Shown: in pieces, positions 12,210 to 63,956 of the stretch
How positions within the stretch are numbered: position 1 is the stretch's first letter
How the letters are laid out: each line of letters opens with the position of its first letter
NCBI GenBank assembly: GCA_015179045.1
Contig: WHUZ01000078.1
Location: 1 to 64,000 of the forward strand
DNA: 64,000 nucleotides
Reading direction: 5' to 3'
Source: Kalaharituber pfeilii
Lineage: Eukaryota; Ascomycota; Pezizomycetes; Pezizales; Pezizaceae
Translations under genes and position numbers: made by a program
The notes under the pieces: model-generated
Told to the model about the DNA's origin: nothing
What the model saw: the letters and a program-made list of their open reading frames with translations, nothing else
Database searches by the model: none

Positions 12210-15200
12210 CTATAGCGAGGAGGGTGCCGCGCCAGTCCACTCCATCTCCTCGCCCAGAGAACTCAGCCCCCCAGCGGCCCCGCTCTGCAGGATCTGACCA
12301 CAGTAGACGTTGAACTCTTCCTGGGTCATGAAGAAATGCCCGTCCTGTTCGGGAGCCTGCTGCTGAACGGCCGTACCAGCCATCTGCAGCTGCTCCGCGT
12401 ACCAGGAAGGCAACATCAATCCCTGGGAAGAGTTACCCCAGTCTTGTGGCGTGCCAGCAGACATCGGCATCCCGTGTGCTTGTACTTGGTGCTGGGCCTG
12501 TTGGTTCTGCACAAACATGGACTGCTGACCCATGTCCATGGCGTTCGGAAGCACGTGTCCGAATTGCTGCAGACCCAGCATGTCTTGGTCCTCGGGTGCA
12601 GCCTGCATAAGCCCGAGATTTTGTGCACCAAGACCAAAGTACGGGAGCTGCGGATCGTACATCTCCTCCTGGGGCTCAAGTTGCTCTTGAGTGGTATAGC
12701 CCTGCTGGAGGAATCCGCCGAAACCGCTTGATGGGGATGCTGTGGGGATGCCAACGCCTGCCGCGGAAAACGATTGGGGGGGGAGGCCGAATTGGTGCTG
12801 CTGGACCTGCTGAGCCAGCTGGAAGGCGGGGTAGTGCGGGGATGTATATTGGATTACATCTTGGGGATACATTCCCACCGCCTCTACCTGCTGGTACTCC
12901 TGGGTACTCCTCTGCATTTGCGGTTGACTTTGCAGAGGTATACTTGACCCAGTCACCGTTGGCGCACTTCTCGGCTGGTCTTTTGGTTCCGCTGGAGCAG
13001 GTGCAGGAGCAATCTTCCGGTGGACTGCCGGACCAGACCTCACCCTCTTCGCCCGGCTTGTGGTTCCCCGATCCGCATTCGCCTCGCCATTCTTCGGCCC
13101 TTCCTTCTTCGACTTTGGCGCCGAAGACCGCTTCCTCTTTCCGGCCGAGTACATCTCCGCTATTGTTGCGGGCACCTGCCCAGCAAACATACCCTCAGCA
13201 GCCTTTTCTAGTGCTGCTTTGGTTTCCTCGTCCAGTTCGCGGTGTTTCTGCGACGAGAGGCGGAGTGGGGCGGAGACGACTCTGTTCTTGCCCGTGGACT
13301 TCTTGGCGGAGCGGCTTCCTGCTGGTGCTGGGGCAGGGGGAAGGGCGAAGGAGATGGGGCCTGGCGGGGGGGGGACTGGCTCATCCACTTGAGCCGGTGT
13401 CTGCTGGGAAACGGGGCGACGTTTGGAGGGCTGACGCTGTGGTAGCACCTCTTCTTCCTCCTCCTCCTCGTCACTTTCGGCCTCCTCGCCGTTCTCTTGA
13501 GGCTTGGTGACATTTTCGGAGGTGGAGGCTTCGGCGGGTTCATTTTTCGCCTCGGTCTTCACAGCGTCACCGGCAGCGAGCTCCCCGTCCTTGTTAAGGC
13601 GCCATGGGGGATGTTGTCTATATACAACATTGTAGAGATGCACGTGGTGGCTTTCCCGGTTCTTCTTCCTTTGGTTGGATTCCTGGTTGTATTTGAAAGT
13701 CTGCGTAGTCCCAGTCAGTATCAAACCTCCCCTGTTCAACTATCAGAGAAAGTATACTCACATTTAACTTTCCATGTGGACACTTGACCATATCACTAAC
13801 AACCCCCTCCTTGCTAGCCCCGAAGCATGTCCCCTTCGCCTGCTCGAGCAGCTCAAACAATGACCTCTCGCGGTTCCAGTAGTTCAAGGTATCCACTGTT
13901 TCGGCGTGCATATGCAGCTTGTGGATCCTCACCACCAGTTTCCACGCGAGCTTCAGGAAGACCTCTTCCCCGGATCCATTGCCGTCGGAACCGTCACTGT
14001 CCTTGAGCTGCCTCCAGTGCCTGTAGACCCTTGTATTGCGATCGTCGATTGCGTACTCATCGGAGAGGATCGCCTGGAGGAGGCCGGAGGCCAGGTCTTC
14101 GCGGTATTTACGGCACGTTGTTGGCGGGATCCACGCCACGGGGCCGGGCGCAGGGTGGCAATCGGCTACCTGCCTGTAGGCCCAGCCCTGCGACTGGTGA
14201 ATCGGGATGTTGAAGACGGGGTGGACCTTGAGCCGCTCGATCTGCTGGTCGATCCTGTCGGGGGCGGGGAAGCGGGAGTAGTGCTCGGACGTCCACCCGT
14301 GCTGCTGCGGGTCCGGGAGAGGGGCGAGGAGGGCGCCGTTGGGGCCGTTGGGGCCGGGGGCTGCAAGGACGGCGGGCGTGTGGAGGTTGCTGCCGAGTCC
14401 GGAGTCGACGGTTGGCGAGGCGGCGGCGGTGCTGCTTCCCCAGCGCGGAGGCGCCAGGTGGCCGTACTTGGACGCGAGGGACAGCGTCAGGCTGTACACC
14501 TCGCGGATTTTCTGCCGCACCTTCATGTTAGCATAGACACATATTTGCGTGCGGAATGCGGAAACTTACTCCGGCCACGTACGCCGCCCTCTCGTTCTCC
14601 AGTGCATCAGTGCCATGCAAAACCAGTCCCGCCTCCTCCCTCCTTGCCCTCAACTGCTGCAGCACCTCCGACGGGACCGGGACACGCTTCAGGAGCGCCT
14701 CATTCGCCCTGTTGAACTCGGACACCGCCGATTCAAAGTCGGACGGGTTGGCACATCTGCTCATTGGGCCTCCTTGGAATTGCAGCATGTGCGTCAGCCA
14801 CGAGATGTAGAGCTGCGGGGGAATGGTGACGACGATGGGCTGAGTGCTGGGGTTGCGGAGCATCAGGGCGGAGGCGGGGGCGGGGGCAACGGGACCGTTG
14901 CTGGCGACGGGGGTGGGCTCGGAAGGTTCGTCCTGGGTCAGGTCGACCACGTCCTCCTCCTGGAAAGAAGTCTCGGGGATTTGAGATTGGGCCCCATCGT
15001 CTAGCAGACTGCCGAAGACGAATTGCTCAAATTCGGGCAACTCGGTCTCGGAGATTTGGAGGCCGACGAGGGCGTCGGAGAAGTACTGGTCGTCGTTGTA
15101 CAGACTCTCGTCGTCTGCTGCCTGAGAAAAGTCCAGGGACTGCGATTGGGGGTTGTTATTATACTGATTGCCGTTATACAGGCTCTCGTCGTCTGCTGCC

Positions 15201-44846: not shown

Positions 44847-46534
44847 ATGTATCACAGTTTATATTCAAGTATATATACTAACAAATATTTTAGAAATGAC
44901 GGACCTTCCAGACAATACAGCAGATACATCCTGATGGAATTAATTGGGGAAGGGGGACAGAGGAGAGACGCATAACGTGTGCGGGGACATTTCATTATTA
45001 GTTTTCCTTCCTTCCCATTAACGATAACAATGCCAGCAGCAGAATCCAAATGGATCGATTCGGTTCTCCAACTGCTGGTCCCTCACGGTCCGCACATGTG
45101 CCGTCCGTGTACTATAATAACAACCCCCAATCTCAGTCCCTGGGCTTTTCTCAGGCAGCAGACGACGAGAGCCTGTATAACGGCAATCAGTATAATAACG
45201 ACCTCCAATCGCAGTCCCTGGACTTTTCTCAGGCAGCAGACGACGAGAGTCTGTACAACGACGACCAGTACTTCTCCGACGCCCTCGTCGGCCTCCAAAT
45301 CTCCGAGACCGAGTTGCCCGAATTTGAGCAATTCGTCTTCGGCGGTCTGCTAGACGATGGGGCGCAATCTCAAATCCCCGAGACTTCTTTCCAGGAGGAG
45401 GGCGTGGTCGACCTGACCCAGGACGAACCTTCCGAGCCCACCCCCGTCGCCAGCAACGGTCCCGTGCCCCCGCCAACGCCTCCGCCCTGATGCTCCGCAA
45501 CCCCAGCACTCAGCCCATCGTCGTCACCATTCCCCCGCAGCTCTACATCTCGTGGCTGACGCACATGCTGCAATTCCAAGGTGGCCCAAATGAGCAGATG
45601 TGCCAATCCGGCGGACTTTGAATCGGCGGTGTCCGAGTTCAACACGGCGAATGAGGCGCTCCTGAAGCGTGTCCCGGTCCCGTCGGAGGTGCTGCAGCAG
45701 TTGAGGGCAAGGAGGGAGGAGGCGGGACTGGTCTTGCACGGCACTGATGCACTGGAGAACGAGAGGGCGGCGTACGTGGCCGGAGTAAGTTTCCGCATTC
45801 CGCACGCAAATATGTGTCTATGCTAACATGAAGGTGCGGCAGAAAATCCGCGAGGTATACAGCCTGACGCTGACCCTCGCGTCCAAATACGGCCACCTGG
45901 CGCCTCCGCGCTGGGGAAGCAGCACCGCCGCCGCCTCGCCAACCGTCGACTCCGGACTCGGCAGCCACCTCCACACGCCCTCCGTCCTTGCAGCCCCCGG
46001 CCCCAACGGCCCCAACGGCCCCAACGGCGCCCTCCTCGCCCCTCTCCCGGACCCGCAGCAGCACGGGTGGAAGTCCGAACACTACTCCCGCTTCCCCGCC
46101 CCCGACAGGATCGACCAGCAGATCGAGCGGCTCAAGGTCCACCCCGTCTTCAACATCCCGATTCACCAGTCGCAGGGCTGGGCCTACAGGCAGGTAGCCG
46201 ATTGCCACCCTGCGCCCGGCCCCGTGGCGTGGATCCCGCCAACAACGTGCCGCAAATACCACGAAGACCTGGCCTCCGGCCTCCTCCAGGCGATCCTCTC
46301 CGATGAGTACGCAATCGACGATCGCAATACAAGGGTCTACAGGCACTGGAGGCAGCTCAAGGACAGTGACGGTTCCGACGGCAATGGATCCGAGGAAGAG
46401 GTCTTCATGAAGCTCGCGTGGAAACTGGTGGTGAGGATCCACAAGCTGCATATGCACGCCGAAACAGTGGATACCTTGAACTACTGGAACCGCGAGAGGT
46501 CATTGTTTGAGCTGCTCGAGCAGGCGAAGGGGAC

Positions 46535-46574
46535 TTTTTTTTTTTTTTTTTTTTTATATCATTACTCGCATGCC
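46535..46574 (-). mobile_element. 40-bp tail A insertion in exon 2 of the pseudogene
   Basis: Poly-T, then ATATCATTACTCGCATGCC, flanked by GCGAAGGGGAC (46524-46534, 46575-46585). Arm 1 has a single GCGAAGGGGAC at the same place. Only half of the hairpin was copied. Confidence 0.9.
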
Positions 46575-47001
46575 GCGAAGGGGACATGCTTCGGTGCTAG
46601 CAAGGAGGGGGTTGTTAGTGAAGTGGTCAAGTGTCCACATGGAAAGTTGAATGTGAGTATACTTTCTCTGATAGTTGAACAGGGGAGGTTCGATAGGGAC
46701 TGGGACTACGCAGACTTTCAAATACAACCAGGAGTCCAACCAAAGGAAGAAGAACCGTGAAAGCCGCCACGTGCATCTCTACAATGTTGTATATAGACAG
46801 CCTCCCCCATGGCGCCTTAACAAGGACGGGGAGCTCGCTGCCGGTGACGCTGTGAAGACCGAGGCGAAAAATGAACCTGCCGAAGCCTCCACCTCCGAAA
46901 ATGTCACCAAGCCTCCAGAGAACGGCGAGGAGGCCGAAAGTGACGAGGAGGAGGAGGAAGAAGAGGTGCTACCACAGCGTCAGCCCTCCAAACGTCGCCC
47001 C

Positions 47002-47063
47002 TTTTTTTTTTTTTTTTTTTTTATTTCACGTGACCCCGCTTGTAGCTGTTCGCCATGGCAGGG
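47002..47063 (-). mobile_element. 62-bp tail B insertion in exon 3 of the pseudogene
   Basis: Poly-T then tail B reversed, flanked by CCAAACGTCGCCCC (46988-47001, 47064-47077; the first two bases may belong to either side). Arm 1 has the empty site. Confidence 0.9.
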
Positions 47064-47454
47064 CCAAACGTCGCCCCGTTTCCCAGCAGACACCGGCTCA
47101 AGTGGATGAGCCAGTCCCCCCCCGCCAGGCCCCATCTCCTTCGCCCTTCCCTTGCGCCAGCACCAGCAGGAAGCCGTTCCGCCAAGAAGTCCACGAGCAA
47201 GAACAGAGTCGTCTCCGCCCCACTCCGCCTCTCGTCGCAGAAACACCGCGAACTGGACGAGGAAACCAAAGCAGCACTAGAAAAGGCTGCTGAGGGTATG
47301 TTTGCTGGGCAGGTCCCCGCAACGATAGCGGAGATGTACTCGGCCGGAAAGAGGAAGCGGTCTTCGGCGCCAAAGTCGAAGAAGGAAGGGCCGAAGACCG
47401 GCGGGGGGGATGCGGATCGGGGCACCACAAGCCGGGCGAAGAGGGTGAGGTCTG

Positions 47455-48099
47455 GTCTGTCGAAACATGACATCCGCCACCCGTGTTGAGTTGTCTATCA
47501 ACATCCGCTACCCGTATGTTGCTGTTACTAATAGATATGTTTTTTCTATTATTGTTACTAATGGATACGTTTCTTCCTGTTACTGTTACTAATAGATAGT
47601 TCCTTCTGACTGCTGTTTCGTCTGTTTATTGGTTGCTGTTCTGTTCTTTCATTTAGCATACACATGATCTACACTCAGTTACTATTTGTTCTTTATGTAC
47701 CTAACACCTCGCCGTAGCCTATCAGGCGGCACGCGAGTAATGAAATAAAAAAAAAAAAAAAAAAAAACTCCGTTGCTATTATGTGTCTGAATCATGCAAT
47801 AACGCCACAGCACCAACTTCACGCCACAGCGCTTAGTTGCAAGCCATGCATTCCGTTACTTCCGCACCTGCCTGTCTAGTCATGGTTCTGCAGTCACGTC
47901 ATGCAATGCTCATTATGTATATAATCCTGTTTGATTCTGCATCTCTTTAATCAATCAGACTTATTGGACCTAACGGTACGGACCCAACGGTACAGATCTT
48001 CTTTACTCCTCCAGAAGCTCTTTCTTGTTTTTCTTACGTGACGAAGCCCTCCTTATTCTAAGTGCGAATCCGGAATTCAGGGTCGACGTTCAGTCATGG
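47455..48099 (+). mobile_element. Composite insertion with tail A (47707-47767)
   Basis: About 645 bp absent from arm 1. Begins with imperfect repeats (CATCCGC-ACCCGT; TGTTACTAATAGATA, three times), then tail A with poly-A, then another 330 bp of unrelated sequence. No clear target duplication for the whole block, so more than one event is likely. Confidence 0.65.
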
Positions 48100-57964: not shown

Positions 57965-58060
57965 TCTATAAAGAGATCTCAAATTCCCTCCTTAACCCAT
58001 TCCTTCTTTCCTCACCACCCACCCAACAAACAATCACCTTTCACATCTTCCTTCTTCCCT
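57965..58060 (+). promoter_or_regulatory. TATA box and pyrimidine-rich leader of the secreted-precursor gene
   Basis: CTATAAAG at 57965-57972 is about 165 bp before the ATG and is followed by CT-rich stretches (57986-58010, 58035-58065), a layout common before strongly transcribed filamentous-fungal genes. The start context TTCAAAATGA is favourable. Confidence 0.55.
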
Positions 58061-58132: not shown

Positions 58133-58906
58133 ATGAAGTACGCTGCTGCCTTCCTCGCTGTTTCCTTGTCAGTCATTGCCGTCAACGCTCTGGTCATCCC
58201 GGCAGTCGAGATCAATGCCCGCGATATTCAGGCTGCAGACTCGACTCTCGCCAAACGCGAGCCTGCTCCGGCTGTGGCCCCAATCGAGGACGATGATAAA
58301 GACGTCCCTGAAATTCCAGAGGATGAGAACGATGCTGTGAAGCTTGCTGATCCTGAGGAAGAAGAGTTCCTCCGCAGCCTTCTCAATCTCCCGGATGATG
58401 ATGATGATGATGACGATGATGCAGCACTTGAGCGCCGTGACAGCGATGATAAAGACATCCCAGAGACCCCAGAGGATGAGAGCGATGTTGTGAAGCTTGC
58501 AGACCCTGAGGATGAGGAATTCCTTCGCAGCCTTGCCAACCTCCCAGAAGAGGATGATGATGATGATGACGATGCAGCACTGGAACGCCGTGACTACATT
58601 GAGAGACGTGGGATTGTTGACAAGCTTGTCAAGATTCTCCTCAAGAAGATCAGCAAGACATCCCTGGCCAAGAAGGTCTGGAATGCTCTTGGTGGTGGCC
58701 TGCGGAAGTCCATCACCAAGTACTTGAAGAGCAAGGCCAAGACTCTCAGCAAGATCACCAAAGCACATAAGAACTGGCTCAAGAACAAGATCAAGGGTGC
58801 TTTGAAGAAGGTCCTTAAGAGCATCATTGGCAGCTGGGCAGCTGGTAAGGTTTTGGGAATTGTTTCCCCATGGGTGGTGGATCTCATCCTCAAAATTATC
58901 TACTAA
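58133..58906 (+). CDS. Secreted Kex2-type precursor: acidic repeats plus cationic amphipathic C-terminus
   Basis: 257 residues, one exon. Start chosen at the ATG before a clear signal peptide (1-19, cut after V-N-A). K-R at 41-42, R-R at 101-102, 152-153 and 158-159 are Kex2-type sites. Between them lie two acidic repeats of about 50 residues (D-D-K-D-I/V-P-E-x-P-E-D-E ... F-L-R-S-L-x-N-L-P then 7-9 Asp, A-A-L-E-R-R). Residues 43-159 carry about -40 net charge by my count. Residues 160-257 have 24 Lys/Arg and 2 Asp (about +22), alternating with Leu/Ile/Val/Trp in amphipathic helices, and end hydrophobic. Acidic propeptides that neutralise cationic lytic or antimicrobial peptides are known in several kingdoms, and fungal Ece1 shows Kex2 release of a lytic peptide. 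No homologue is recognised; a membrane-active or antimicrobial secreted product is inferred. No cysteines. Confidence 0.85.
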   Translation: MKYAAAFLAVSLSVIAVNALVIPAVEINARDIQAADSTLAKREPAPAVAPIEDDDKDVPEIPEDENDAVKLADPEEEEFLRSLLNLPDDDDDDDDDAALERRDSDDKDIPETPEDESDVVKLADPEDEEFLRSLANLPEEDDDDDDDAALERRDYIERRGIVDKLVKILLKKISKTSLAKKVWNALGGGLRKSITKYLKSKAKTLSKITKAHKNWLKNKIKGALKKVLKSIIGSWAAGKVLGIVSPWVVDLILKIIY

Positions 58907-59575
58907 ATGCGATGTGAGGCTTGTGGGTGGTAAGTTACGATCAATCGAGATAGACCTATTTGACAAAATACTGATTTCAGAATCCTAGGGCATCACAATC
59001 TACAAACCACAGACGACAGGTCAACCTGCAAATGGATGATGCTATAATCACAATCAATGTTCTCAGGATGACGGGTGGTATAGGCATGCAGACAACCACA
59101 TAGTCCGCAATGGATTCCAGCTTTCCTATTCCTCATCCTGCGGTCTTGAGTTTCTGTTCGAGTTTCCACCTGTTTTGGACGTAATGTATATACATAGAAG
59201 AAATGGTATAGTGGTCTGGATTTGATTTGGATCTGGATTCTGGTTTTAAGGTTGAAGACTCTGGGCTCCTTTCCTCTTGATGTCACCAAGGGGAGAGTTT
59301 CGTGGAATTGGAAAACTTTGCTGCCGTAGTTAGTTAATTAGTTCAAATTGAATTCTTCTCTCGGGAGCTGAATTTAGTTTTATATTTAATAGTGCGGACG
59401 ATATCAGCGACTAAATAGAACATTGCGCCCCAATTGGCGAACCAAAGTGCGGAATTAAATTCTATACACCTGGCGCTATAGATTCAATTTGAGCCTAATT
59501 GATAAATTGACACATGTACGTTGTGTCTTTTCCCACCCGAAACTGGTTGAGAACCCAGTCCCGACCTGTCCGACG
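58907..59575 (+). other. 3' UTR with a possible intron, then gene-free flank
   Basis: 58930-58980 reads GTAAGT...TTTCAG (51 nt, ACTGAT branch-like), an intron-like stretch after the stop codon. The region 58990-59374 has the diverged duplicate at 55560-55975. No gene between here and the gypsy LTR. Confidence 0.45.
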
Positions 59576-60010: not shown

Positions 60011-60469
60011 ATGGACGACACTCTTATGCGCGAAACGCTTCCTCCGGAAGGGTCACCTTCGTTGCCAACTGCTCCGTTCATGACGCCATCAACTAGCGCT
60101 ACGTCTCAGAACTTTGCCTCGATCCTCGATCGGTTCACTATGCCTCCTGAGTTGCGATCGTACTTCCAGGACCTACACAGCACTGTACAACAACTCCATA
60201 CTACAGTTGCTACCCTCCGCTCGGCAACTCCCACCTCAGGCTCCACTATTACTGACCATGCACCGAAGACCAAGGCACCGGACATTTTCACAGGGAACCG
60301 GTCGAAGCTTCGCTCCTTCACTACTACAGCTGTGGACAGTTCGGGGAAAGAGCCAGCTCAGACAACTAAACCGCCCTGCTCTGAGCTTAACCGAGGGCGA
60401 TATTCTTCTTTATTATACCAGACCGACCTCCGACTCTCATCTTATTGTCAATGGTTTACTCCGTTCTAG
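60011..60469 (+). pseudogene. Collapsed Gag of the gypsy element
   Basis: About 105 N-terminal residues look like a chromovirus Gag start (coiled-coil-like region, then K-A-P-D-I-F-T-G-N-R-S-K-L-R-S-F). The capsid core that should follow is missing: the sequence jumps within a few codons to a zinc-knuckle relic in another frame (60322-60366, YYSCGQFGERASSDN), whose final metal ligands are gone. An internal deletion with frame loss is the simplest reading. Gag function is lost. Confidence 0.75.
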
Positions 60470-63400
60470 TTCTGTTTGTACTCCTGTTACTATTATGATT
60501 GATTGTGGTGCTTCGTCAAATTTCATAAACCGCTCCTTTATTGACAGATATCCTATACCACTCCTTCGCCACCCTACACCTATTGATCTTAATGTAATTG
60601 ATGGTTCTTCTATTTCGTCTGGTTCTGTTACTCATTATACTGTGCCTATAACCCTGTCTATTCACTCACATTCTGAGAAGATCCCTTTGCATGTTATTCC
60701 AATGAAGGATTATGATATTGTTCTAGGTATTCCTTGGTTGCGTTTGCACAATCCTGTTATCAATTGGGCCAAAGATGAGGTTGACTTTACTTCTGCATTC
60801 TGTCATTCACGTTGCTTGAATATTTCTTCGTTGTCTACTACTCCTTCAATTTCTCATTCTGAGTCTTCTTGTATGCCGAATCCATTGAATATCTCGTTTG
60901 TGTCAGCTCCTGCCTTTCACCGCTTAGCGAGACCCCGCCGGAAATGTTCAGATTCAGATTCGGAGATAGCTCAGGGCCTTGTCATCGCTACATTGGATAC
61001 GCCTAATAAGACGAAGGTTACTCCTATCATCCCAGAGGAATATAAACGCTTTTCTCGCATCTTTTCGGCCACAGAAGCAGCTGTCTTACCTCAGCATCAG
61101 CCCTGGGACCACAAGATTCCTCTACAACCTGGCACGCATCCTCCGTTCGGTCCGATTTATGCGCTTTCAGAAACCGAACTGCAAGCCCTACGAGAATACT
61201 TGGATGAGAACTTAGCAAAAGGGTTTATTCGTCAGTCGTCGTCTCCTGCCGGTGCACCAATATTGTTTACTAAGAAGAAGGATGGAAGCCTGCGTTTATG
61301 TGTTGACTACCGAGGGCTAAATCGAATCACAGTAAAGAACCGCTACCCTATACCGCTGATATCAGAGCTCCTAGACCGTGTGCGCGGGGCAAAATACTTT
61401 ACGAAAATCGATTTGCGAGGGGCATATAACTTGATACGAATTGCTGAAGGCGATGAATGGAAAACGGCGTTCAGAACACGATATGGACACTATGAGTATA
61501 GAGTTATGCCTTTTGGACTAACGAACGCTCCGGCATCATTCCAAGCATTGGTGAACGATATCCTTCGGTCATACCTCGACTATTTTGTTGTTGCCTTCCT
61601 CGATGACATCCTGATCTTCTCGAATACTCTTGAGGAACATAAAGTTCACGTTACCAAGGTATTAGAGAAGCTTGATGAACACAACCTCTTTGTGAAGCTT
61701 GAAAAATGCTCATTCCATGCCAAAGAGGTGGAATTCTTGGGATACGTCATTAGCAGAGAAGGAATGAAGATGGATCCAAGATTTGCAAACTTCTACCGCC
61801 GGTTCATACCACACCACAGCAGTATCATCGCACCGCTTACTCGCCTACTCAGGAAAGATGCTTCGTTTACATGGACCGATGACTGTCAAAAAGCATTCGA
61901 GGCTATTAAGCAGTCCTTCGCTACAGCAGTGGTCTTAAGACATTTTGATCCTGAATTACCTGCTGTTGTCGAAACCGATGCTTCTGACTTCGCTATCGGT
62001 GCCTGCCTGTCCCAATACGATACTGAAGCAAAGACTCTTCGCCCCATTGCGTTTTATAGCCGAAAGCTACTCCCCGCAGAAGCGAACTATGAGATACATG
62101 ATAAGGAGCTATTAGCTATAGTTGCCGCCCTCAGAGAATGGAGAGTTTATTTAGAAGGGGCTAAGCATCAGATACAGATCTACTCTGACCACCAGAACCT
62201 TCAGTCATTTACCTCCACGAAAGTCTTGAATCGAAGACAGGCCCGCTGGTCAGAAATGCTAGCCTCATATGATTTTGTTATTGTCCATCGCCCTGGTGCG
62301 GCTAACTCGCAAGCAGATGCACTATCCCGACGACCCGACTACCAAGATCCTACCGCGAAGCAAGAGCACTGTTTGCTTAAACCCCATCAGCTTATACTTG
62401 CTGCGGTTGAGCTGAGGAATACTGCGGTTGAAAAGGATAGTAGTATACTGCAGAAAATTAAGGAAGCATATGAGCAGGACCCATCTTGTGCTAAGTTAAA
62501 GTCAGAGCTCACCTCAGGCACAGCACCTAAGTTTCGACTGCGTGCATACTCTCTACGTGATGATCTTATTCTCTTTAATGGGCTAATCTTTGTGCCAGAT
62601 AATAAGGGCCTAAAGGTAGAAATTGTTCGGATGCACCATGATACACCTACAGCAGGACACCCAGGCCAAGCGAAGACACTAGAACTGATCTCCAGAAACT
62701 TCTTTTTCCCCCGTATGAGACAGTTCGTGGAAACGTACATTCGAACATGCGAGACTTGTGGAAGATGCAAGGCATCAAGACAGCAACCCTTTGGTCAGTT
62801 GCAATCTCTTTCTGTTCCTCCACACCCCTGGCATTCAGTATCAATGGATTTCATAGTCAAGCTTCCCCTATCTAAAGACCCGTCATTATCTCCTTCTCCA
62901 TCCTTCGATTCCATACTCGTTGTAGTTGATCGACTCACGAAAATGGCATATTTCATTCCCTGTAGCGAGACCGTCACAGCCCCGGAGCTAGCTCAACTCT
63001 ACCTCAAGCATGTATTCGTTCATCACGGTATTCCGAAAGAGATCGTTACAGATCGTGGAGCAGTATTCGCCTCGAACTTTACTCGCTCACTATGTCAAGC
63101 CGCCAATATCGACCAGCAACTCTCAACAGCTTATCATCCACAAACCGATGGTCAGACCGAGCGTGTGAATCAGATTCTCGAGCAGTACCTTCGAGCATAC
63201 TGCAACTATCAGCAAGACAATTGGGTTGAACTCCTACCATTAGCTCAGTTTGCCTACAATAATGCTGAACAAAGCAGTATCAAATGCTCACCCTTTTACG
63301 CGAACTACGGCTACCACCCAACTCTCAACGTCTCGTTGGAAGCATCTGCGAAATCTCCTGCAGTCGATGAACGGGTTCAAGAGTTACGTTCCCTACATTG

Positions 63401-63956
63401 CCTCTTACAGCACGAAATGAAGTTTGCCCAGCAACTGCAAGCCCAGTACTACAATCGCGATGTACGCCCAGAGCCTGAAATCAAAGAAGGTGATCGAGTT
63501 TGGCTTATTCGAAGGCACATAAAAACGAACCGACCCTCCGAGAAGCTCGACTATAAGAAATTAGGACCATTCGAAGTGGAAAAGGTGATCAGCCCAGTAG
63601 CCTACAAGTTAAGACTACCCTCATCAATGCACATTCATCCAGTCTTTCATGTCTCGCTGCTGGAAAAGGCTACCACTGATAATACACTCAGAGAAGAACA
63701 ACCTGCACCACCGCCTATCATCATTGAGGGTGAAGCATACTGGGAAGTTGAAGAGGTGGTCAACAGCCGCAGACGTGGGAAGAAGCTGGAGTATGAGGTT
63801 AAGTGGAAAGGTTACCCACATCATGACAACACTTGGGAACCGGCTCAAGGCCTTAAGAGCATACAAGGAATGATTAACCAATTCCACGAGAAGTACCCTG
63901 ACAAGCCCGGCCCCACGAAGCCAAAAAGGGGGGGGAAAGGCTCCGCCGCTCAGTGA
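60114..63956 (+). pseudogene. Ty3/gypsy chromovirus Pol polyprotein, open but internally deleted
   Basis: Stop-free over 3.8 kb; meaningful homology begins near 60400. In order: aspartic protease (I-D-C-G-A-S, 60498-60515); RT (LCVDYRGLN at 61297, FLDD at 61597-61608); RNase H (E-T-D-A-S-D near 61974, Y-S-D-H-Q near 62182); integrase zinc finger (H-H ... C-x-x-C, 62635-62770); DDE core (M-D-F, T-D-R-G, Q-T-D-G-Q-T-E-R); GPF module (L-G-P-F-E-V, near 63560); and a C-terminal chromodomain (YWEVEEVVNSRRRGKKLEYE then V-K-W-K-G-Y, 63735-63860) that would direct integration to modified chromatin. G-M-K-M-D-P is joined directly to F-A-N-F-Y-R-R-F-I (61768-61803): about 30 residues normally between these motifs are absent, so the RT thumb is damaged. 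Probably dead despite the open frame. Confidence 0.9.

Follow-up and report, generated by a model that had tools for sequence, protein, structure and literature searches.

A multicopy family of charge-balanced, predicted secreted precursors in the desert truffle Kalaharituber pfeilii

What kind of protein joins a strongly acidic half to a strongly basic half in one chain that appears to be secreted? This question is raised by an open reading frame near the end of the window, the 64,000-nucleotide stretch of DNA analyzed here from Kalaharituber pfeilii, a member of the Pezizales (GenBank assembly GCA_015179045.1, contig WHUZ01000078.1, positions 1 to 64,000, forward strand). The frame is a complete, uninterrupted coding sequence at 58133..58906 on the + strand, stop included, and its translation agrees with the 257-residue protein described in an initial annotation made from the sequence alone. 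That annotation had proposed a secreted precursor in which acidic repeats mask a cationic, amphipathic peptide until Kex2 cuts, an interpretation that is partly supported overall. We found a real, expanded gene family of unusual, charge-balanced precursor design, in one species only, for which we infer a function. The reading that we tentatively prefer, at a little short of an even chance, is a secreted pro-protein whose acidic part would mask the cationic domain until the Kex2 cut, after which the freed domain would damage the anionic membranes of competing microbes.

Much of the layout given in the initial annotation was recovered. The protein starts with a hydrophobic N terminus ending in VNA, a predicted signal with a hydropathy maximum of 2.41. 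The four dibasic sites lie where they had been placed, after residues 42, 102, 153, and 159 (KR at 41-42; RR at 101-102, 152-153, and 158-159). The two acidic repeats correspond to a 151-nt direct repeat (58291-58441 and 58444-58594) with 85% identity, and each ends in LERR, in line with the ERR ending reported. Cutting in silico at KR and RR gave segment charges of 0 (residues 19-42), -21 (43-102), -19 (103-153), 0 (154-159), and +22 (160-257), so that a pro part of -40 stands against +22 in the C-terminal 98 residues, both as first estimated. This C-terminal domain contains 23 Lys, 1 Arg, and no Cys; V/I/L/W/Y account for 40 of the 98 residues, and A/V/I/L/W/Y together make up 48%.

Is the frame a gene at all? 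The Asp runs come from repeated GAT/GAC codons, and the antisense strand over this stretch also contains long open frames, as might be expected of a chance reading frame or decayed sequence. We searched the K. pfeilii genome and recovered 19 intact copies of the family, a number that, like all copy counts from this search, is a lower bound. From pairwise Nei-Gojobori counts, we estimated the ratio of nonsynonymous to synonymous substitution rates (dN/dS) for 14 of the 171 possible pairs. In all 14, the ratio for the C-terminal domain fell between 0 and 0.50 (e.g., 0.16 between L001 and L012 and 0.09 between L027 and L028), and by this comparison of sequences the domain is under purifying selection. 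Because of the 19 intact copies and these domain ratios, we take a chance or decayed frame, which we would consider exceedingly improbable, as refuted; the copies also have similar 5' and 3' features.

Conservation was uneven along the precursor. Of the 13 dN/dS values defined for residues 19-100 of the pro part, 11 were 0.14 to 0.54; the other two, 1.27 and 1.59, came from pairs with few changes, and values up to 1.01 were reached in the short stretch from 101 to 159. Across 16 copies, conservation was 0.91 for the motif at residues 69-87, which contains the predicted acidic helix and ranks highest among the scored segments of the pro part; values for the other segments were 0.88 for the domain, 0.80 for the signal, 0.75 for the linker, and 0.49 for the first Asp run. 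Two copies, L027 and L028, are strongly diverged (56 and 54% identity to the window protein). When the window domain was compared with each of them, 38 of 40 large hydrophobic positions remained hydrophobic and 19 of 24 K/R positions remained K/R. What the sequence itself establishes, in our view, is the architecture with its charge balance and dibasic sites, the 19 intact copies, and the purifying selection.

The copies differ in number of repeats and in their C termini. Two acidic repeats occur in 4 of the 19, the window gene included, and these copies form one side of a branch in the tree (support, 95/94); the other 15 have one repeat. An altered C terminus is common to three intact frames, which have one or two Cys in the domain, while the other 16 copies have none there. 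Collinear stretches of C337 and C2, mostly 93 to 98% identical, each contain four copies (at 58-82 kb and 317-332 kb, respectively). Since these copies may be allelic, the family may occupy no more than 15 separate loci. At a larger scale, C337:54-83 kb and C2:316-336 kb are collinear in inverted orientation, again mostly at 93 to 98% identity, and represent either a segmental duplication or alleles that were assembled separately. Interrupted or partial copies occur at five loci (C79, C2:336-339 kb, C190, C296, and C224).

Several copies bear marks of rearrangement. In L021, L023 (C19), L024 (C326), and L025 (C79), a shared new C terminus with one or two Cys replaces the last residues, apparently through a frame change before the last helix ends; three of these four precursors are open frames. 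The neighbors L015 (C337:68694) and L016 (C337:76861) share 99.7% identity in their coding sequences but only 73.6% over 300 nt of 3' flank, where L016 instead matches L022 at 96.0% identity, as if gene conversion had affected the coding part. Two broken members, L026 (C2:338792) and L029 (C190:404050), seemingly contain the same insertion, which resembles a short interspersed nuclear element (SINE) and has a poly-T tail (poly-A on the other strand).

An anionic pro part that balances a cationic C terminus is a family-wide property. Among the 12 single-repeat copies with a standard C terminus, the charge of the pro part ranges from -19 to -24 (mean, -21) and that of the domain from +18 to +21 (mean, +20.5), and the summed charge lies between -4 and +2 in all 12. 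For the four copies with two repeats, the sum is -16 to -18; for the three altered copies, it is -4, -6, and -11. Charges vary little among related copies. Because all 12 sums are close to zero, the basic design appears to be one repeat at a ratio of about 1:1, to which the window form adds a second mask. The acid/base design of the initial annotation therefore stands as far as neutralization is concerned, but its 2:1 excess of acidic charge is confined to 4 of the 19 copies.

The dibasic sites are largely conserved as well. KR 41-42 is present in 19/19 copies, the RR before the spacer in 18/19, and the last site (RR or KR) in 14/19, so that at least one dibasic site stands just ahead of the domain in 18 of 19 copies. 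The genome also encodes a proprotein-convertase-type P domain (65.4 bits, positions 1-56 of 86). From these sites, cleavage of the precursor by Kex2 would be expected, and secretion, passage through the Golgi in neutralized form, and release by Kex2 are likely, supported by conserved sequence features. Alternatively, the precursor might work whole, as a near-neutral, charge-segregated protein (e.g., in a secreted condensate or matrix), with dibasic sites that are incidental. This would suit the near-neutral sums of the single-repeat copies, the intact frame L024, which has lost both junction sites, and the loss of the second junction site in 5 of 19 copies. However, the retention of the first KR in every copy and of the RR before the spacer in all but one speaks for cutting, and L024, with its altered C terminus and a helix 1 that is one residue shorter, may be decaying. 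We therefore judge an uncut functional precursor to be a long shot. Separately, XA/XP-like dipeptides follow the conserved first KR (window 58259-58300, and paralogs) and resemble the STE13 spacers described for alpha-pheromone precursors.

What would be released? An AlphaFold2 model built on 14 domains (mean predicted local distance difference test [pLDDT], 90.8; predicted template modeling score [pTM], 0.78) predicts a compact five-helix fold, with helices at domain residues 2-13, 16-26, 29-42, 51-73, and 75-97. The last of these is hydrophobic (grand average of hydropathy [GRAVY], 1.42; charge, +1), as the initial annotation had said of the C-terminal end. The structure prediction that it had suggested for the released segment thus also gives helices, but in a compact predicted domain rather than in loose amphipathic peptides. 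In a model of the precursor (residues 20-257), the last four domain helices return with the same ends, one starting a residue earlier, and the domain blocks have pLDDT values of 87 to 95. The pro part is mostly below 50 outside the acidic-motif helices, which are predicted at residues 74-84 (block pLDDT, 54-57) and 125-135 (68-73), and a low-confidence helix spans the junction and continues into domain helix 1. The surer modeling of the acidic helix nearer the domain would fit docking of that helix onto the domain.

We propose the following sequence of events. The precursor would be secreted and would cross the Golgi in charge-neutralized form, while the acidic helix and the poly-Asp run may rest against the cationic domain and keep it blocked. 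Kex2 in the Golgi would then cut at ERR, parting the pro part from the domain, and the folded cationic domain of 98 residues would be set free to act on anionic membranes, probably microbial ones. The two-repeat form at the window locus would be a doubled mask. Composition and analogy with known systems suggest that the domain probably acts on anionic membranes and that microbes are the target. We also counted in favor of this proposal the antibacterial activity reported for aqueous extract of another desert truffle, Terfezia claveryi, which the review PMC3854548 ascribes to small peptide antibiotics.

Some observations weigh against the self-masked antimicrobial proposal. RR occurs at domain residues 32-33 in 5 of 19 copies and KK pairs lie inside the domain, both of which speak against a clean single product. 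In addition, the amphipathic helices claimed at the outset were not borne out: none of the five is clearly more amphipathic than its own shuffles, with fractions of shuffles at or above the observed hydrophobic moment of 0.098, 0.35, 0.37, 0.29, and 0.092 for helices 1 to 5 (5000 shuffles). This last result would also be expected if the domain were a nontoxic polyanion binder, attaching to wall or matrix polymers, phosphate-rich molecules, or extracellular nucleic acid, with an acidic part that only prevents binding in transit. Its net charge of +22, with 23 Lys in 98 residues, would serve such a role, whereas its 48% of A/V/I/L/W/Y and a hydrophobic last helix of 23 residues (+1) are, from general knowledge, unusual for a plain binder, and we think a binder of this kind rather improbable.

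Does the family have relatives elsewhere? Our protein searches reach only relatives that share short exact words. With the precursor as a phmmer query, all eight database relatives at E <= 1 were hypothetical proteins of K. pfeilii. The profile search that had been called for was run with the precursor and with the domain: a profile of 13 precursors found only K. pfeilii proteins among the 7994 scored candidates sharing most words, a profile of 14 domains found no protein outside the species, and neither gave a strong match to a known family. Other truffles for which gene models are lacking could contain relatives that escaped these searches, and the window gene itself was absent among the protein models returned. 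Pattern matches in prokaryote contigs (n = 525) and viral contigs (n = 599) yielded none that could be confirmed. Among Pfam, NCBIfam, and PDB sequences, nothing exceeded a curated cutoff or had E <0.01, the best Pfam value being 0.016 for YL1 in 1 of 13 members, and structure searches (including Foldseek and VIA) gave no significant match for the domain fold. Across the profile and structure searches run, the view that no known family has this arrangement was upheld. Among the matches listed in the literature search, judged by title and the start of the abstract, no publication dealt with this family. One candidate, CelTOS (PF18659), was rejected at 10.1 bits against a cutoff of 27.2 (E = 1.1); its best E value was 0.35, in 2 of 13 members. 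Readings as a wall protein, a pheromone, or a ribosomally synthesized and posttranslationally modified peptide (RiPP) were dropped because there are no repeats as product.

A multicopy, partly clustered family found in one species only could also be expected of a plant-directed symbiosis effector, similar to mycorrhiza-induced small secreted proteins (MiSSPs), whose freed basic domain would enter root cells or the apoplast and tune immunity or transcription. In mycorrhizal fungi, a substantial share of the symbiosis-related secreted proteins is species specific, as described in part of PMC7550596. We rate this explanation next after the antimicrobial one because PMC10455484 lists K. pfeilii among the ectomycorrhizal truffles, although we consider it unlikely. 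The kept hydrophobic and K/R positions and domain dN/dS values of no more than 0.50 in the 14 pairs examined do not point to an arms race with a host receptor, but they are still compatible with an effector.

Known precursors offer several comparisons for the antimicrobial proposal. Amphibian dermaseptin-type precursors consist of a signal, an acidic propiece, a dibasic site, and a helical cationic peptide, and their products are short single helices. The order of parts in K. pfeilii is similar, but the product is a predicted five-helix domain instead of a short single helix. Leaderless and circular helical bacteriocins (aureocin A53 and AS-48 types) are small, Cys-free, cationic helical bundles; the domain had no PDB sequence match of note, and their absence among the listed Foldseek or VIA rows excludes nothing. 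By analogy, the family would work like the alpha-defensin precursors of vertebrates, without kinship. These have an anionic pro part opposed to a cationic effector, removal by a protease, and a proposed self-protection, according to the available text of PMC3308943. The defensins HNP1-4 are tridisulfide peptides; the K. pfeilii domain, in contrast, is Cys-free, 98 residues long, and predicted to be all helical. No sequence relation to alpha-defensins appeared in the general homology searches, in which no direct comparison was run. Membership of alpha-defensins or another Cys-stabilized antimicrobial class was rejected, as the conserved disulfide Cys are missing and the domain is Cys-free in 16/19 copies.

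Among fungi, Ece1 of Candida albicans, the candidalysin precursor, has a signal peptide, matched here by a signal-like start, and shares Kex2-type sites, and its product damages membranes, which is only proposed here. Ece1 has seven KR motifs in 271 residues, giving eight moieties and a 31-residue product (PMC5784256, available text), whereas the window protein has four dibasic sites, one terminal product of 98 residues, and an acidic mask. Site number and product length thus keep Ece1 an analogy only, as first stated, and searches for homologs, limited to relatives sharing short exact words, gave no match outside K. pfeilii. Kex2-processed repeat proteins (KEPs), which include the precursors of alpha-pheromone and ustiloxin, resemble the family in their dibasic sites, a signal-like start, acidic repeats (in 4/19 copies), and the XA/XP-like residues after the first KR. 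As far as the surveys are available (PMC7329392 and PMC6339444), KEPs require at least three repeats between Kex2 sites, the repeats are the product, and the second survey leaves the C-terminal fragment out of analysis. With two repeats in 4/19 copies and one in 15/19, the family falls outside this definition. Given the repeat threshold and the omitted fragment, precursors of the present type would be expected to be passed over. Fungal antimicrobial effectors, such as those predicted by AMAPEC (PMC13127573), have the same proposed role, and the main text of that paper, so far as available, mentions neither Kalaharituber nor Pezizomycetes.

A bolder version of the antimicrobial proposal, which we regard as possible but doubtful, is that this orphan, multicopy family is a fungal invention convergent with animal host-defense precursors. 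In this version, the conserved acidic helix would act together with the poly-Asp run as an inhibitor carried by the precursor itself. The domain that it blocks would be a new membrane-active fold, Cys-free and made of five helices, which Kex2 unlocks, and a double-locked form would have arisen when the inhibitor module alone was duplicated. If so, fungi would have evolved charge-neutralized pro-antimicrobials independently, with a fold and an inhibitor module absent from the libraries searched. The same architecture could be sought in other genomes, and it would be a candidate class for the antibacterial activity that the accessible literature reports from desert truffle (Terfezia) extracts.

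Table 1. Features of the precursor gene and its flanks, in window coordinates.
Feature	Position	Strand	Basis
TATAAA promoter-like box, 166 nt before ATG	57967..57972	+	TATAAA in 14/19 copies
Signal-peptide-like N terminus, residues 1-19, ends VNA	58133..58189	+	Hydropathy maximum 2.41 at residue 4; cleavage site predicted by eye
Short propeptide, residues 20-42, conserved KR at end	58190..58258	+	KR 41-42 in 19/19 intact copies
Ala/Pro linker and acidic repeat 1, residues 43-102, charge -21, LERR end	58259..58438	+	In silico cutting, repeat search
Acidic helix predicted in repeat 1 (residues 74-84), within conserved motif 69-87	58352..58384	+	Model helix 55-65, block pLDDT 57 and 54; motif conservation 0.91
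Acidic repeat 2, residues 103-153, charge -19, LERR end	58439..58591	+	151-nt direct repeat, 85%; found in none of the 15 single-repeat copies
Acidic helix predicted in repeat 2 (residues 125-135)	58505..58537	+	Precursor-model helix 106-116, block pLDDT 68 and 73
Spacer DYIERR, residues 154-159, dibasic site each side	58592..58609	+	RR upstream in 18/19, RR or KR downstream in 14/19 copies
Predicted released domain, residues 160-257, 98 residues, +22, Cys-free, five helices	58610..58903	+	AlphaFold2 pLDDT 90.8, pTM 0.78
Predicted 59-nt intron in 3' untranslated region	58930..58988	+	Donor-like site in 19/19 copies; acceptor placed by eye from copies

The flanks of the copies share further features (Table 1). 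Of the 19 copies, 14 have a TATAAA within the 400 nt inspected upstream, 166 to 216 nt from the ATG. In all 19, which as related copies are not independent, a donor-like GTAAG[T/C/G] lies 11 to 47 nt past the stop, and a [C/T]AG acceptor lies 73 to 106 nt from the stop in 16; on these two grounds, we predict an intron in the 3' untranslated region. The three copies with an altered C terminus have extra sequence after the stop, and their first such acceptor is at 138-139.

Elsewhere in the window, a long open reading frame at 60114-63953, about 1.2 kb downstream of the gene, encodes a Ty3/Gypsy-type polyprotein with reverse transcriptase, integrase, and chromodomain. An inverted repeat pair lies at 46000-47457 and 13031-14361 (93 to 96% identity), and a short element adjoining it (~47.46-48.0 kb) recurs on about 30 other contigs among 40 candidates scored.
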